DNA from: Thoreauomyces humboldtii
Taxonomy: Eukaryota > Chytridiomycota > Chytridiomycetes > Spizellomycetales > Powellomycetaceae
Reading direction: 5' to 3'
Assembly (NCBI GenBank): GCA_027596035.1
Contig: JADGJA010000154.1
Span: 1-35,696, forward strand
Length of the DNA: 35,696 nucleotides
The translations under genes and the position numbers were made by a program. The notes below the pieces were generated by a model, which was not told where the DNA came from, did no database searches, and worked only from the letters and a program-made list of their open reading frames with translations. Of this stretch, positions 25,300 to 34,072 are shown piece by piece; within the stretch, counting starts at the first letter, position 1; every line of letters begins with the position of its first letter.

Positions 25300-26727
25300 A
25301 TGATGGTAACAGTCACGGTCAACCCCGACTTTGTGGACGACGTACAGCGCGCGCCGGGCGCGGCCGCGGCCTATCACGCGTACAGGACGCTCGCCGCTTC
25401 CACCGACCGCATCGTGATCCAAGGCTCGGACCGCCTCTTCGATCTTATGCCATTCGTAGCCGCCGGCAAGTGCACTCTCCGCGTCTCGGATCGGATACGA
25501 TCCCACTCCAACTACCGCTGGGAGGCGAGCAACACCACAACTTCCCGCTGGGAGCGCCTCTACGGGGACGAGAACGACCTGAAGTTTGACGCCGCGACCG
25601 GCGAGAAGAGATCCGACGACCGTTTGGTTGAGGAGCCCAAGGCGGCGTGGTGGGATGTCGAGTGGGACGGCCACGAACTCCAAGTCGTCCTGTTGCACAT
25701 CTACAGGCCGATGGAAGGCGAGGTCATGCTTTATCATGTCATCACGGATTCGAGAGAGGTCGGCGAACGGTTCATCGCGTCGGTCGAGCGAACTAACGCC
25801 GAAGTCAAGGAAGTCATCTGGGTCTACGAGCAGGGCAACTGGAGGGCCGATGCGCGTCTCTACAAGGCTGTGAAGCACTCCACCTTCGAGAACCTCATCC
25901 TCGAATCCAACCTCAAGAACACCATCCGTCAGGAGCTTGATCATTTCTTCGCCTCTCGGGAGATGTATGCAGAGTGCGAGATCCCCTGGAAGCGCGGCTT
26001 CCTGCTGACAGGTCCGCCAGGGAATGGAAAGACGCACCTCGTCAAGTCCATCATCAACCACTTCCACGCCACCCCCGCACTCCAGGACGTGACGGTCCTC
26101 TACGTCAAAGCATTCGTTGCCCGCGGATGCCCGGAAGAGTACCAGATCAGCGATGTCTTCAAGCGAGCTCGGAACCGTCCATCGCTGCTAATCTTCGAGG
26201 ATCTCGACTCTTTGATCACCAAGGACAACCGTTCCTTCTTCCTCAACGAAGTGGACGGTCTGGCCGCCAACACGGGAATCGTCATTCTGGCCACGACCAA
26301 CCACCCCGAGTCGCTCGATGCAGCCATCCGCGACCGACCTAGTCGATTTGACAGAAGGTTCGACTTTCGCCTACCAGATGCCTCGCAACGGCTGGCGTTT
26401 GTCAAGGCGTGGTCCGACAGCAAGAAGTCGGAGCTGCAGATCGACGATGAGACGGCAGAACACATCGCGGCGGACGAGAGCACCGGATCCTTCTCCTTTG
26501 CGTACCTCAAGGAACTGATGCTGGCGGCTATGGTTCGGTGGATACAGACGAAGTCGGTCGACGGAGTTGGAACGACTCCGTTCAAAGATACTTTGATCGA
26601 GCAGGCGGAGATCCTCAGGGAGCACATTGCCAAAAACAAGGAGCTGGACGAGCTGGCAAAGAAGGAGAAGGAAAATGGAGCAAAGGACGATGAGGGCAAG
26701 AAGCGAGCCCCTACCGGGTGTTGTTAG
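25300..26727 (+). CDS. AAA-family ATPase
   Basis: This intronless gene codes for 475 aa with one AAA module in the C-terminal half. Walker A GPPGNGKT is at residues 238-245, Walker B LLIFEDLD at 296-303, the sensor ATTN follows, and 'RPSRFDRRFDF' holds the expected arginine finger. The N-terminal 200 residues have no domain I can name but include alternating aromatic and charged strands ('WWDVEWDGHELQVVLLHIY'). The C-terminus is a Lys/Glu-rich helix, perhaps coiled-coil, ending in GCC. The architecture (uncharacterised N-terminal region plus a single AAA domain of BCS1/YjoB-like type) is common in fungi; the substrate is unknown. The last 56 codons' DNA overlaps the first unit of a tandem duplication that continues past the stop codon. 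Confidence 0.85.
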   Translation: MMVTVTVNPDFVDDVQRAPGAAAAYHAYRTLAASTDRIVIQGSDRLFDLMPFVAAGKCTLRVSDRIRSHSNYRWEASNTTTSRWERLYGDENDLKFDAATGEKRSDDRLVEEPKAAWWDVEWDGHELQVVLLHIYRPMEGEVMLYHVITDSREVGERFIASVERTNAEVKEVIWVYEQGNWRADARLYKAVKHSTFENLILESNLKNTIRQELDHFFASREMYAECEIPWKRGFLLTGPPGNGKTHLVKSIINHFHATPALQDVTVLYVKAFVARGCPEEYQISDVFKRARNRPSLLIFEDLDSLITKDNRSFFLNEVDGLAANTGIVILATTNHPESLDAAIRDRPSRFDRRFDFRLPDASQRLAFVKAWSDSKKSELQIDDETAEHIAADESTGSFSFAYLKELMLAAMVRWIQTKSVDGVGTTPFKDTLIEQAEILREHIAKNKELDELAKKEKENGAKDDEGKKRAPTGCC

Positions 26728-26814
26728 AGGGCTCGTTCGTCCAAAATGGAGCAAAGGACGATGAGGGCAAGAAACGAGCCCCCTACCGGGTGTTATTAGA
26801 GGGCTCGCTCGTCC
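26672..26814 (+). repeat. Tandem duplication of the AAA gene 3' end
   Basis: Two copies in a row, 26672-26742 (71 bp) and 26743-26814 (72 bp), share the start AAAATGGAGCAAAGGACGAT and differ at a few positions. Copy 1 has four C in 'gagcccctacc' where copy 2 has five. With four C the frame reads into TAG at 26725; the extra C in copy 2 would give a different frame. The copies cover the coding end, the stop codon and the first bases of the 3' flank. Confidence 0.85.
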
Positions 26815-26985
26815 AGAATGAAGTTTTTGTTGACTTGCATAATGAATCGTTGGATACAATCGGATATGACTGTCTGATTCTGCGCACACAGCGAGGTGGC
26901 ACCGTGGCAGACGGGGTCTGAAATTGGTTGTGGCATTTTCCTGTTGGCTGCTTCGGACTTCCACCTCCTTCCGATTTGATTTGCA

Positions 26986-27516
26986 GTGGCACGGTGCACT
27001 TTGGATCCGGAGAGCTCCCTCGCAAAGTTCGAGTACGAGGTTTGCTCTGACCTTCAGTTTTGTCTTCAATCCGGTCGAAGAACGGTCGGCTGGGCCAACG
27101 TCTCGCTCCCGCTGGGTAGCAACTTCACGGCTAACGTGCGAGCTCTAAACGATACAGGACTATGGAAACCCTGGATCAGCAGCGCGGGCTCCATGCAAGT
27201 CGAACTCTCTGCCCCAAGGTTCCAGTACGCTTTCGTGACTGGGAACATCAGTAACATCGCCACCTGCAACCATGCTTGGCGCGAGACTGATCTGGAAGGC
27301 ATCGGGGCCGTCGCTTATCGTCGAGTACAAGGTTCAGATTGGAACGACATGCGGAGGTCCCCGGTTTCTCGGCCTCATGTCGGCGGGGACGTTCGAATCG
27401 TTGTCCCTTACGAGCCTCGTGATTACGCACAACATTACCGTTTATGCAACCATCATCGCCATCTCGGCTTCTCGGCTTCGAAGCGTAACAGGTACCCACA
27501 GATGGAAGTCCCTTGA
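26986..27516 (+). CDS. Possible hypothetical protein, fragmentary
   Basis: A frame without an ATG start is open from a GTG at 26986 and shows protein-like composition up to about 27290, with four N-glycosylation sequons (NVS, NFT, NDT, NIS) and two Cys. From about 27272 a different frame looks better, with a hydrophobic 'LVITHNITVYATIIAIS' segment. An acceptor-like TTTGCAG just before 26986 suggests that it could be an internal exon. No domain is recognised. It may be a secreted or membrane protein with undetected introns, or a relic. Confidence 0.2.
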   Translation: MARCTLDPESSLAKFEYEVCSDLQFCLQSGRRTVGWANVSLPLGSNFTANVRALNDTGLWKPWISSAGSMQVELSAPRFQYAFVTGNISNIATCNHAWRETDLEGIGAVAYRRVQGSDWNDMRRSPVSRPHVGGDVRIVVPYEPRDYAQHYRLCNHHRHLGFSASKRNRYPQMEVP

Positions 27517-28074
27517 ACGTGACTGCAGATTGGACAGGTGTGCCAGAGCGAAAAAAGAGATAGCGGACTACAGAGGGTACTTGTACTTTATTTTTCATTT
27601 TCGCTTGAACGAGAATAAATGGAGCTTAGTAAGCACAACCGAAGACGAGTAGTCCTTTCTCTCCTGTTGCAGTTTTGATGGACTCGTCGACAACCAAGGT
27701 GGGCTGTCCGACATCCACGTCCTTCTCAGCGCGAGTCTGCGCGACCAACACGGGAGAAATGCTTTAGACCCGCATTAAACCCTAACCAGCATTAAACCCT
27801 AACTGTACATCGCACAATGTCACCGTCATCAGCAGCAGTTGTACTGTACGTACGTACAGATCCTTCGAAGATTCCCATCAGCAACGACGGACGGAAACCG
27901 TGGCGACATATACGTATGTACTTATTTGTTGTTTCCTCGCTCCTAGCGCATCTAATGCTTTGTCGGTCTGACTAAACGTACAAGCTTAGCAGGCGTTGTG
28001 CCCCTGTCGGCAAGCAGTCCTCAATTGGCAATTGCTCACATCGATCGGCCTCCTGCTCAAAAAGTCTCCTCAAG
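27517..28074. other. Intergenic region upstream of the WD40 gene
   Basis: No gene is seen. It holds a telomere-like tandem motif (listed separately) and a perfect 16-bp palindrome CTGTACGTACGTACAG at about 27844-27859. The WD40 gene starts at its right end; no TATA box is obvious. Confidence 0.4.
27772..27805 (+). repeat. Tandem telomere-like motif, two 17-bp units
   Basis: GCATTAAACCCTAAC occurs twice with a 17-base period, starting at 27772 and 27789. Each unit contains AAACCCTAAC, that is CCCTAA, the C-rich strand of TTAGGG telomere repeats. It could be a telomere-repeat-factor binding site or a relic of a chromosome end. Confidence 0.6.
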
Positions 28075-29349
28075 ATGGGTCCGTCAGCTGCTGACGCGCT
28101 GAAGGAAAACTGGAGTCATGGTCGGCACAACCGGCTCTCCATCCCAGCGCACGGTTTCAACGTCGTCACGTGCCTCCAAATCGACGCCGAATCCATCATC
28201 ACCAGCTCCGACGACGCCACGATCACCATACACAACATCGCAACGGGAAAACTCATCCATACCCTCAAAGGCCACAAAAAGGGTATATGGTGCATGAAGC
28301 TTGTTGGTAACATCCTCGTCTCGGGCTCGACCGATATGACCGTGAGGGTCTGGGACGTACGACGAGGGATCTGCATCCGCGAGCTGCATGGATTCAAATC
28401 GACGGTCCGGACGGTGTCAGTGCTCCTTCCCGAGCTAAACGTGAGGACTGGGGACCTCGAGCCTGACGAACCTCTGATCGTCGCGGGATCACGCGATGCG
28501 ACCCTGAGGATCTGGCGTTTGCCGGCCGTGGACGATGCGGAACCTATCGTCAAGTCCGAGTCTTCCAGGAAGAGAAAAAAGGTACTAGCATCTCCCTTCC
28601 AGGAGCAGGTCGAGGATCCCCTCCTGCGACACGTGCTGAGAGGCCATGCGAACTCTGTGCGAGCAGTTGCAGCTCACGGAAATACGGTGGTCAGCGGCTC
28701 ATACGACCGCACCGTTCGCATCTGGAACGCGGCGGACGGGAAGCTCGTCCACACCTGTACGGGCCACGCCGAAAAAGTTTACAGCGTGGCTCACATCCCC
28801 GAGCTCGAAAAAGCGGTCAGCGGGAGCATGGATGCGATCATCAAGGTGTGGTGCACACGCACCGGAAATCTTCTCTTTGACCTCGAGGGTCATACCTCCC
28901 TCGTCGGACTTCTGAAGGCATCGTCAGAGTACATCGTCTCGGCCGCTGCCGACGCTACCCTGCGCGTGTGGGATTCAGCGTCGTGCGAATGCATCGCTGA
29001 GCTTGTCGGCCACACAGCTGCCATCACGGCCTTCCACTACCGACCTTCGGCAAGGACTCTCGTTTCAGGAAGCGAAGGGGGAGTCAGGCTGTGGGATCTC
29101 GACCGTCTTGATCTTGAGGACGCGGGGCATTTGGTGCAGCCAAAGTTCCTCGAAGACTGTCAAGGCGTGTGGAGAGTGTGGTCAGACGAACATAGACTCG
29201 TCGCAATCGTTCAGAGGGAAGGTGGGGCCACCTCCATCGAAGTCCTGGACTTTGCAGAGAGCGACGGGTACGGAAGAAGGACCAACTTACCGGCGGAGGT
29301 CCCAGACGACGGGGACGTGTCGTCGTGGTTCTATTTTGTTGGTTTCTAG
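28075..29349 (+). CDS. Cdc4-like WD40 propeller protein lacking the F-box
   Basis: This intronless gene codes for 424 aa. The sequence follows the eight-bladed propeller of Cdc4/Fbw7, the substrate receptor of SCF ubiquitin ligases. It starts at the linker 'LKENWSHGR', continues with 'VVTCLQIDAESIITSSDDA', 'GIWCMKLVGNILVSGSTDM' and 'VSGSYDRTVRIWN', and has a closing blade 'RLVAIVQREGG...IEVLDF' as at the Cdc4 C-terminus. The Cdc4 N-terminal half with dimerisation helix and F-box is absent, and no F-box is seen in the 500 bp upstream. Such a protein could bind substrates without recruiting Skp1, or be non-functional. The last six codons and the stop (FYFVGF, TAG) come from 18S rDNA sequence starting at 29327. 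Absence of introns may point to a retrocopy or partial duplicate, but some other genes here are intronless too. Confidence 0.75.
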   Translation: MGPSAADALKENWSHGRHNRLSIPAHGFNVVTCLQIDAESIITSSDDATITIHNIATGKLIHTLKGHKKGIWCMKLVGNILVSGSTDMTVRVWDVRRGICIRELHGFKSTVRTVSVLLPELNVRTGDLEPDEPLIVAGSRDATLRIWRLPAVDDAEPIVKSESSRKRKKVLASPFQEQVEDPLLRHVLRGHANSVRAVAAHGNTVVSGSYDRTVRIWNAADGKLVHTCTGHAEKVYSVAHIPELEKAVSGSMDAIIKVWCTRTGNLLFDLEGHTSLVGLLKASSEYIVSAAADATLRVWDSASCECIAELVGHTAAITAFHYRPSARTLVSGSEGGVRLWDLDRLDLEDAGHLVQPKFLEDCQGVWRVWSDEHRLVAIVQREGGATSIEVLDFAESDGYGRRTNLPAEVPDDGDVSSWFYFVGF

Positions 29350-29437
29350 GACCGAAGTAATGATTAATAGGGATAGTTGGGGGCATTAGTATTTAATTGT
29401 CAGAGGTGAAATTCTTGGATTTATGAAAGACTAACTT

Positions 29438-29486
<49 letters not shown>

Positions 29487-29576
29487 AGGGGATCGAAGAC
29501 GATCAGATACCGTCGTAGTCTTAACCATAAACTATGCCGACTAGGGATCGGACGACGTTAAATAATTGACTCGTTC

Positions 29577-29649
<73 letters not shown>
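29327..29649 (+). rRNA. 18S rRNA gene fragment, 323 bp
   Basis: The sequence matches nuclear small-subunit rRNA from 'GGTTCTATTTTGTTGGTTTC' to 'GCTGAAACTTAAAGGAATT', roughly yeast positions 820-1142 by my estimate. The conserved words 'GTCAGAGGTGAAATTCTTGG', 'GGGATCGAAGACGATCAGAT' and 'GGGGGGAGTATGGTCGCAAG' are intact, and few bases depart from what I expect for a basidiomycete (for example GAAG for GCCG after 'TCTAGGACC'). Both ends are abrupt: before it lies WD40 coding sequence, after it 'TAGGGTTAGG' replaces the expected GACGGAAGG. It is far too short for a working rRNA and is not next to other rDNA in this window. Confidence 0.93.
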
Positions 29650-29659
29650 TAGGGTTAGG
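29648..29659 (+). repeat. Telomere-like TTTAGGGTTAGG at the rDNA junction
   Basis: Almost two units of the TTAGGG repeat begin exactly where 18S similarity ends. The G-rich strand reads rightwards, opposite to the CCCTAA motifs at 27772-27805. Confidence 0.5.
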
Positions 29660-29709
29660 TAGAAGGTTGCACCACGCTCATTACTGACTCTTGCCTTTCA
29701 TTTATCCAG

Positions 29710-32414
29710 CTCAGCATGGTGACTCAAGAATCGTTGAGCGCAGACCGCAGAGCTTCGATTTATCTCCGCCTGACATACAATACATCTCTGACGAGATCGG
29801 CCAGGCTGATGTGGACCTTACCCTGCTGCACACGTCGGCAGTAAGTGGCGGCCTCCTGTCGGGCGACAGCGAGAGAGTCCCCTCCGCAACGGCTACCCCG
29901 CGGCAAGGACGTGATGGTCCACAGCACATGCTTCAAGGGGACAGCAACGAGAGTGATTTCTTCAGCATGGATCGCGTTCCTGTAGCGAATGATGGCAGCC
30001 TCGCACCGAGAGGCGACGGAGATTTTACTGATTTCGGCACACTGGCAAACTCTCCGACACCGTTGCGTAAAGAGGGCCACCATCAGGCATACAGCACAGC
30101 TCGATTAGCCTCCGCCGTGAGCAACGCACCTGATGCATCCGGGCCTCCTTGCACACCTTCCGCAGATGGCGGCAACACGTCCCCGAGATGCAGTGGAGAT
30201 AATGTTCATTTCGCTGCGCCAGCACTTGAAGGGCGAGACCGACCGTATCGTAAGACTTACGAAGACTTGGTAGGCAGTGGCTACGCTAGCCCGCCGCATA
30301 CGCCAGAAAATAGCCGGTACCGCGTTTTGCTGAGACACGACAAGGATGCTGCGAAAGTTTTCTTATCAAGAGCACTTGAGCCTTCCCAAGCATGGCCAAC
30401 GTCTGACAAACAGAGTCCCGAGGCAGGAACTTGGGATTACCAGCCACGAGGATCCCTTTCATCGGCCTCCTCATCGGAGGCTACCACCGGCGAAGACTTT
30501 CCTGAATCTGGCTGTCCCAGCCCTTCGTACGCTCCTGCGGCCGAGGATCAGCCTGATTTCTTCCTGTCAGCACCGCAAGAGGCCGGGCGTCTCCTGATGC
30601 CTGATGTTGATCAGGGCGATCTGGCTCGTGGGATCAAAAGCGTCGTACGTTTCAAATGGTATCTTTTTTTTACCCTTGGACAATCCTTCCTCCTTGACCT
30701 TACACGATTTGACTGATCCGGCTCCTTTAGTTATACCCTTCAGAACTATGACATGACACCACTGAATCACAATGAGTTCCATGGCCTACGTACGTTCTTC
30801 AGTGTGCCATATGAACCACGCCGCGGCAACAACAGACCCAGGAACGAGCAGACGATTGCCAAGTCGCGGGAAAGAATCTGCGGTTTTCTCGGTTGGTTGA
30901 AGCAGAGCGGGCGACAGTCCAAGCCGTCGTTTGTTCATTTCGAAGACGTCCACCTATTCCTGGTACGCGGTGACTTCGTCGGCTTTCCTTTGCCATTTGG
31001 ACGTCTCGCTTACACATCTTCCTCTTCTAGGACAAGTACGTCGAGGGATACCTTCGTTCTATCCGCGGACTGAGTCACGGGTCCATCGGCAACCACGTTA
31101 CGGCTGCTATCGACGTTCTTAAGTACCGTACCGCCCAGTCCTCTAGTGCCACAAGGCTCAACCCGAAGGCCAACATGAAGATTGCTCGGCTTATGCGTAC
31201 TCGGAATCAAGAGCAGACACTAGCCGAAAGGGAGCGTAACGAGACGCGGCAGGACAGTGCCTCTTCTGGAATCGTCTGGGAGCAGGTACGTGGGAAGATT
31301 GCAGTGATGTAGCGGCTTATGCCTGTCGCTTACATCCCCATTTCCACAAAGGTCTTAGAAGCAGTTCGCCGCCAACGCCTCGTCGTGACCAAGCTTTGGG
31401 AGCTGTCCAACGAGGGGAAGATGGCGGACTACAAGCTCGCGGTCGAGGTCCAGCATTACGTGGCAGCCGCTTTCTACACGTGCATGCCCCCCGGACGATC
31501 GAAGGAAGTCCGATTGCTTCTCGGGCGCATCCTGAGCGAGAACGAAAGCCAGAAATCGCTCCAAAACCACATCACCGTGCTTCAAGGTAGGGGAGGGAGT
31601 CGCGAACATTCTCTATGTACCTGTATCATGGTAGCTCCATTCTGACACGCTTGCACTCTCCAGCGACTATAAGAACAAGCAGAAATGGGGAAGGGACACG
31701 ATCGAGTTGCCGACCGACAAGGAAGTGCTGTTGAAGCATCTGCATTGGTTGATGTCTCCGGCTGTCCGAAACCTCCTCACCCGTGACAACAACCATGGCT
31801 TCCTCTTTTGCAGGCGGAACGGGACTAATTTTTGCGAGGCTTCGAGTTGGACCACCTACCTGGCGGGGATCGTCGCAAAGCACACCGGGGTTGCTGGCGT
31901 TGGCACGAACGCCTTGCGACATGCATTTACGACGTTTATGGAAACGTCCACCGACGAGGATCACTTGCGATTGAGAGAATCGGTTGGACGCGCAATGCGG
32001 CACACGGGTCGCATCCAGCAGAATGTCTACAACGACGTGTCAAACCTCGAACGGAAGCGGAAAGCAGTCGAGTTTGCCACGGGCGCATTCAAGCGAGCGG
32101 TTATCGAGATCGACTCTGATGAAGACGTGGCGAGACCCGTACGCTTGAATCCCCCCGTCGGCGCCCTGGTTGAATTCAAGGACGAGCAAGACGCTCCCGC
32201 TTTCGGAAAGGTGTTGCGTATCACAGCTGGAGACGTGTTGGTCATGGTTCTGCGACCTTCCCCTGGGACGAACGTGCTCATTCCAGACGCAACAAAGGTT
32301 CTACGAAAGAGCATCTCACAGCTCACATGGCCGATCGACTACGAGACGAGCGGCGCGGACTATCTACTTCGTACGAGTGTGGCTGCGATAGAAGGTTTTT
32401 CTGGTGAGCAATAG
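29710..32414 (+). CDS. Tyrosine recombinase, Crypton-like
   Basis: Exons as I read them are 29710 (first in-frame ATG 29928) to 30658, 30731-30962, 31031-31285, 31352-31586 and about 31664-32414. The N-terminal ~300 residues are Ser/Pro-rich and low in structure. Next comes a helical core-binding segment ('AKSRERICGFLGWLK'), then the catalytic domain with box I Arg (CMPPGRSKE, codon at 31496), ALRHAF (Arg at 31917, His at 31920) and MRHTGRIQQNVY (His at 32001, candidate nucleophile Tyr at 32028, nine residues apart as in the family). After it come a small barrel-like stretch ('GALVEFKDEQDAPAFGKVLR') and a short tail. Fungal Cryptons are the best-known mobile elements with such genes. The 5' end is unclear: an acceptor at 29709 suggests a lost upstream exon towards the rDNA junction. 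The fourth splice with canonical sites leaves the frame off by one, so the gene may be broken. Confidence 0.65.
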
Positions 32415-32604
32415 ATAGTATATTGTGACTCGTTTTGCATGGCTTGGGTGGGAAAGCTCATCGGATGAACGGTGGGAATATAAGTGCTTTACTTACTATA
32501 GTTGATGTTAGCTCGCCATTTCTGCCTCCGGTTGATTAAAGCTAGTTCTGACGGCATTTTCGGCAGCCTAAGGACGAATGCGTGTTCACCATTCATCTTC
32601 GAAA

Positions 32605-32669
32605 CGATCGATTACGAGACGAGCGGGGAAGGCTATACTTCGCACGAATGTGGCTGCGATGGAAGGTTT
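32605..32669 (+). repeat. Second copy of the recombinase gene 3' end
   Basis: This segment repeats the end of the recombinase coding region at 32332-32398 (shared 'ACGAGACGAGCGG' and 'TGTGGCTGCGAT'), with several substitutions and two bases fewer. A weaker match just upstream (about 32570-32600, 'GGACGAA') to 32268-32290 suggests that the duplicated piece was longer and has lost an internal part. Confidence 0.75.
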
Positions 32670-32690
32670 CCCGGGTGGGTCATAGAACGT

Positions 32691-33506
32691 ATATGTGCTT
32701 GACGCTAGATAGCGTTTACTAGAATCTTACTGCCCAGGCTTGCAGTTCGTGCAGGCACGGTCTCCTCCGCGGAGATAATGAGGCTGTTAACCAAGCAAAA
32801 GAAATAGCAGCATAGGATTGGGCCGCCTCCTGATAATAGTAAGGTCCGACAAAGTGCTCCAAGTGCAAGGAACCATTGACGTACGGCCCCATGAAAGAGA
32901 TCAAACCATCACCACACTCCTAGCTGAGTGTCTTCCAAACAATGGTGTTGTTGAAAAATCGTCGAGTTCTGATGTATGCTTGGATCAGCGATTGACCGTG
33001 CATACCGATAGAAGTCCTTACGTCTTTCCGCCTCGTCGTCTAGCATTTCATGATGACTCTAACGCCAGCCGACGAGGCGGTTATCTATCCGGACATCAAT
33101 CAAGGATGGAATAGCGTCAAGGTGAAAGCCCCTTGTACCCTTTGCCGCAGTAGTAGCACTGACTCTCGCTTCAATCAGATCATCGAGATGACTGTGATCC
33201 CGTACTGCTGGTGCATCTTGCCTCGTACTCGTCTCTGGAATGTCCTATTCATCGGTGCTGTCTTTGACTATCTCCATGTGAGATGAACATGCTAGATTCG
33301 GTTGTAACAGGATTTCGAACTGACCCATGGTCTTGTGATAGGTCATCACGGTTTTCTCCGTTTACACCGTAGAACAACTCAGTCCTACCACGGGCTTAAG
33401 TCGATCTGGGGTATCCAATGTCTTTCGGCCGCCATGGTTCGCATCGCTGAGATTTGGGTAAGGCTGCGTTTGCATCATCGTCGCTAGCCTGCCAAGCTAA
33501 CTCAAT
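32691..33506. other. Intergenic, no supported gene
   Basis: Short open frames here have no recognisable domain and no clear splice sites. I see no RNA gene or strong repeat. Confidence 0.35.
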
Positions 33507-33921: not shown

Positions 33922-34072
33922 TACCGTAAACAAAATGGTCGTACACCCCCCCTTCAACCGAGTCGACGAGAAAATTACACCAGAGAAAGCTAAAGAAAGC
34001 GTCCTTTTGGACAGCTAAATTTCTCGTCGCCTCAAGTTGAAGGGGGGGTGTACGACCATTTTGTTTACGGTA
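33922..34072. mobile_element. Foldback MITE with TA duplications, Tc1/mariner-like
   Basis: Perfect 35-bp terminal inverted repeats, 33924-33958 and 34036-34070, start CCGTAAACAAAATGGTCGTA and end with a run of seven C next to TTCAAC. They are bounded on both sides by TA, the target duplication of Tc1/mariner-type transposons. A second nested pair CGACGAGAAA / TTTCTCGTCG (33964-33973, 34020-34029) continues the fold, leaving a loop of about 46 bases. There is no coding capacity. It ends nine bases from the stop codon of the neighbouring minus-strand gene, inside its 3' untranslated region. Confidence 0.88.

Follow-up and report, generated by a model that had tools for sequence, protein, structure and literature searches.

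A Cdc4-like gene of Thoreauomyces humboldtii that ends in an 18S rDNA fragment at the edge of a multi-copy element

At chromosome breaks in yeast, the inserted sequences are frequently derived from DNA that is fragile, telomeric or repetitive, and the published account implies that in Dna2-deficient cells many inserts stem from rDNA (PMC11724301). The same account describes few rDNA inserts in rad27 mutants, where nearly all inserts are shorter than 100 bp. In vertebrates, telomeric repeats are inferred to have been inserted at breaks during evolution, though no telomeric insert was counted in over 35,000 induced junctions (PMC8537989). Among the best-ranked entries of literature searches on fusions of rDNA to genes or its insertion into them, and on telomeric tyrosine recombinases, nothing matched the case described here.

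The window that we analyzed is the entire 35,696 bp contig C62 of the chytrid Thoreauomyces humboldtii, whose assembly comprises 20.67 Mb in 823 contigs. We describe the anatomy of a locus in this window, both edges of an rDNA fragment within it, and an element family with its differing flanks (Table 1). It is probable, in our view, that a recent break-repair event brought a fragment of 18S between the 3' end of a Cdc4-like gene and the margin of an element that probably encodes a tyrosine recombinase.

Table 1 Coordinates of the features at the gene, rDNA and element junctions, in positions of the window
Feature	Position	Strand	Basis or remark
Native part of the F-box-less, Cdc4-like WD40 gene	28075..29325	+	417 codons, one open frame; WD40 PF00400 7.3e-47
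Internal 18S rDNA fragment, 324 bp	29326..29649	+ (same strand as gene)	RF01960, conserved columns, own-genome DNA search
Seven codons WFYFVGF and TAG from 18S sequence	29326..29349	+	Codons, Rfam alignment; junction +/- about 3 bases
TTAGGGTTAGG, telomere-like left terminus of downstream element	29649..29659	+	Line-up of 14 left ends; first T common to 18S end
Multi-copy element with five-exon probable tyrosine-recombinase gene	29649..32729	+	Right limit marks only where similarity to the C104 copy ceases
Recombinase-like gene model	29928..32414	+	Exons 29928-30658, 30731-30962, 31031-31285, 31352-31585, 31665-32414

The Cdc4-type WD40 propeller is recognized by Pfam, and the alignment with chytrid proteins named cdc4 extends across it. 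The two closest homologues of the window protein carry that name. The first, P0002 (57% identity), is a paralogue encoded in the same genome exactly at C12:14851-16029; the second, the Geranomyces protein P0003 (56%), likewise lacks an F-box. Pfam matched 38 families in the 28075-29349 frame, and the 25 of them listed include no F-box. The window protein begins just ahead of the propeller, as do P0002 and P0003, and the gene may have an upstream exon that is so far unseen. Because the propeller is complete, we infer that the Cdc4-like protein still works. Two copies of AAACCCTAA, which resembles a telo-box, stand at 27777 and 27794, about 280-300 bp upstream of the gene. Further upstream, at and just beyond the end of the AAA ATPase gene, there is a tandem duplication at 26672-26823 with a unit of 71-72 bp.

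A reading of this DNA from sequence only had proposed that the WD40 frame enters 18S rDNA without a break, that the final residues and the TAG are read from rRNA sequence, and that the original stop was lost. These proposals are borne out: the frame from 28075 to 29349 stays open over 424 codons and through the junction at about 29326 (+/- about 3), codons 418-424 (TGG TTC TAT TTT GTT GGT TTC) and the TAG are rRNA sequence, and no native stop remains in frame ahead of the rDNA. The Cdc4-like gene would have been deprived of its original terminal codons along with their stop. The natural end of the protein had been placed at the residues LDF, where it probably does not lie, judging from the homologues. 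Past LDF, both P0002 and P0003 continue with AESDxYG and end at the sixteenth residue; in the window protein, LDF is followed by 24 native-looking residues and then by the seven derived from rDNA. Third-position GC is 0.68 in the body of the gene, 0.79 in the 24 post-LDF codons and only 0.43 across the seven that are read from rDNA. Homologous tails are variable, with the partial record P0019 ending at LDF, and the tail of the window protein is shared by none of 12 aligned relatives.

The fusion had also been presented as a notable way of making a C-terminus, which is not supported; the 18S part may, as was further proposed, act as 3' untranslated region. Seven codons were added, the chance of at least seven sense codons in a random insert is about 71%, and all three frames of the 18S piece stop within 21 codons. 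A short tail and a stop are the outcome of any insert. Nothing indicates selection on the tail, and selection on the new C-terminus is unsupported. The odd ending of the Cdc4-like protein is most likely an accident and not a designed fusion.

The eukaryotic small subunit rRNA model RF01960 scores 297.7 bits (E 2.4e-88) in the Rfam analysis of 29290-29720, a match far above chance to an internal fragment, and RF02542 scores 143.5 bits in the scan of the whole window. Over 29340-29649, 134 of the 135 strongly conserved consensus columns compared match, and the one mismatching column is a T in yeast too. Similarity to 18S begins near TGGTTCTATTTTG, at 29326 give or take about 3 bases, an edge placed by eye against fungal 18S sequence. 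It ends at GGAATT (29649) and collapses beyond, with 10 of 17 compared columns mismatching from 29650 on. The piece has sharp edges and almost no decay. It is shorter than the interval of 29280-29660 first assigned to it and, at about 324 bp, is not the complete 18S gene of an rDNA unit. The window has no further rRNA match at Rfam gathering scores. A DNA search of the same genome with the 18S sequence, which skips very common words, returned this copy as its sole match. A downstream 18S probe matched nothing in the assembly in a DNA search that likewise skips such words and had no positive control. The rDNA array seems to be missing from the assembly. Searches of viral and genome contig collections with 18S words gave no match.

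The right edge of the rDNA is defined by what follows it. The last T of the terminal GGAATT is also the first base of TTAGGGTTAGG; TTAGGG is the telomere repeat of the T. humboldtii genome, and the left edge of the element corresponds to between one and a half and two such units. When 14 left ends of the element were lined up, TTAGGGTTAGG was found exact, over its 11 bases, at 8 of them and GGGTTAGG at 13. The first 100 bp of the element are alike in 70 of 91 pairs, and the 400-bp flanks ahead of it are alike in one of 91, the pair C104 and C480, which share 60 bp at 88%. As the element starts are alike and the flanks unlike, the rDNA ends on its right precisely at the element's left terminus, a point missed in the earlier reading. 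The line-up omits C96:4681-4838 and C412 (without a left end), the second start on C548 (3811-4117), repeated rows for C669, C677 and C308, and C131, C302, C212 and C464, where no left end was found. Across 17 loci of other element copies, no rRNA match at gathering scores was found beside the element, only two tRNAs. Dismissing TTAGGGTTAGG as a common word was considered and rejected: 112 sites carry it, the reversed control has 34, and telomere arrays account for many of the 100 listed occurrences.

The gene model within the element gives a spliced frame of 733 aa, in which the start codon and the last splice site are uncertain; a deposited T. humboldtii model, P0123, covers part of it. The last exon has 14 further matches on eight other contigs at 49-85% protein identity, and the 25 listed relatives of the protein all carry chytrid names, three of them T. 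humboldtii. The tyrosine-recombinase family PF00589 is recognized in 4 of 17 aligned members, with a best E of 2e-5 that is below the curated cut-off, and it is not hit in P0123, the window's own protein. The family alignment has conserved LRH, MRH and Y columns that we take to be the tyrosine-recombinase motif. A predicted structure (mean pLDDT 68.8, pTM 0.56) had no PDB fold match at E 0.001, and a PDB sequence search returned one match, weak and irrelevant. Because the assignment rests on weak Pfam matches and this motif, the gene is only a probable tyrosine recombinase. The right terminus of the element was not found by DNA similarity. The end of the recombinase-like gene (32332-32423) is duplicated at 32605-32694, 271-273 bp downstream, at 81-84%. 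At 33922-34072 there is an inverted repeat whose 37-nt arms match perfectly and stand 77 nt apart, resembling a small fold-back element, and it has relatives of up to 97% on seven other contigs. On C539, left of position 446, the flank of the element resembles a Ty1/copia RNase H by eye; the flank gave no Pfam match, and a copia-like identity was dropped.

We propose the following course of events. A break would have occurred at the 3' end of the Cdc4-like gene, and the broken end would have been ligated to an internal 18S rDNA piece of 324 bp or extended by copying it. On its far side, this piece abuts exactly the left terminus of the multi-copy, in part subtelomeric, element. By chance, the frame would have continued for seven codons into the rDNA before reaching a stop. 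The 18S piece is sharp-edged and its right edge is a terminus found in 13 other copies, and a random chimera is not expected to land on an element edge, which favors break repair. The yeast and vertebrate precedents, the orientation of 13 of 14 copies toward the nearer contig end, and the telomere arrays at or near some of the ends they point to also speak for it. Against this, the junction is known from one strain and one assembly, and the published data include few rDNA inserts in rad27 mutants and no telomeric insert among the induced junctions. The junction of gene, 18S and element is, we believe, real DNA, and both break repair as its origin and the order of events are our reconstruction from its structure.

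The alternative that survives best, which we nevertheless consider unlikely, is that rDNA reads were wrongly joined to a gene contig during assembly. Reads from rDNA are very deep in any fungal library. The undecayed appearance of the 18S piece would suit such a chimera; it is consistent with a recent event and also with an artefact. No further 18S came up when the assembly was searched at the DNA level; it is in 823 contigs and contains at least one perfect palindrome. The palindrome is on C212 (66,624 bp), a contig with telomere arrays at both ends, where the arms 26625-33312 and 33313-40000 mirror each other at 100% identity over the 6,688 bp compared; it may be an inverted duplication or an assembly artefact, so the assembly may contain artefacts. 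However, a chimera needs two wrong joins, one of them at precisely the left terminus of the element family, and the window contains no N.

Quite unlikely, in our estimate, is an insertion of the element into an 18S gene or fragment, followed by movement of the composite to a place beside the Cdc4-like gene. The rDNA does end at the element terminus, as such an insertion would give, but the other half of the 18S was looked for to the right of the element and not found, with no other Rfam match in the window at gathering scores and GACGGAAGGGC missing from it. This argument is weak, as it is uncertain where the element ends on the right.

The telomere-like terminus invites a further explanation. 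In 13 of the 14 copies, the contig end toward which the element points is the nearer one (one-sided sign test 0.0009), a pattern that would also arise if contigs broke inside the element; the single copy that points to the far end is on C539. The pointed-at end of C198 is a terminal telomere array, the only such case, and on C104 and C539 a short TTAGGG array is separated from the pointed-at end by 48 and 47 bp. Stretches of 65 and 233 bp on C308 and C363, respectively, are shared with the C539 contig. The telomere-ending contigs C234, C648 and C691 are absent from the element matches, and the matches on C131, C302, C464, C412 and C212 lie well inside their contigs, without a left end. C62 has no telomere array, and its right flank has nothing in common with eight telomere-side stretches except element sequence. 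The element family is in part subtelomeric. Element copies might then mark healed breaks, at which an end gained telomere repeats and was capped by a copied subtelomeric block starting with the same repeats, the 18S rDNA having been picked up first in the window. We regard this as very unlikely; if true, the 29649 junction would preserve the trace of a healed chromosome end in a chytrid, with the gene fusion as a by-product. We rejected the idea that TTAGGGTTAGG came solely from telomerase acting on a broken rDNA end: 8 of the 14 left ends carry these 11 bases, so TTAGGGTTAGG is more simply the element terminus.

A selected fusion, in which the rDNA-derived C-terminus or 3' UTR is functional, would fit the intact frame through 417 native codons but is extremely improbable given an extension of chance-expected length, the variable homologous tails and the lack of the same tail among the aligned relatives.

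Stray rDNA within genes confuses annotation and rRNA surveys, and it records how a genome repairs its breaks. If the junction is real, it shows at sequence level, in a recent example from an early-diverging fungus, how a broken gene end is patched. A more useful lead comes from the neighboring element family, with its telomere-like edge, some copies beside telomere arrays, and relatives only in chytrids among the listed matches.

The break-repair event that we propose has partial counterparts in known systems. As in the templated insertions of yeast (PMC11724301), repetitive nuclear DNA lies at a break-like junction with other repetitive DNA; the chytrid case differs in being a natural locus known from one assembly, and its 324 bp exceed nearly all rad27 inserts. 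Like the interstitial telomeric sequences of vertebrates (PMC8537989), it has a short TTAGGG stretch exactly at the junction, but the 11 bases in the chytrid recur at 8 of 14 element left ends and look like a terminus and not a separate telomerase product. The element itself is comparable to the Crypton DNA transposons (PMC3212892) in being a multi-copy fungal element with a probable tyrosine-recombinase gene. It differs from the Cryptons in that its Pfam support is weak, no fold match was obtained, neither a right terminus nor a terminal direct repeat is fixed, and some copies lie near telomere arrays.
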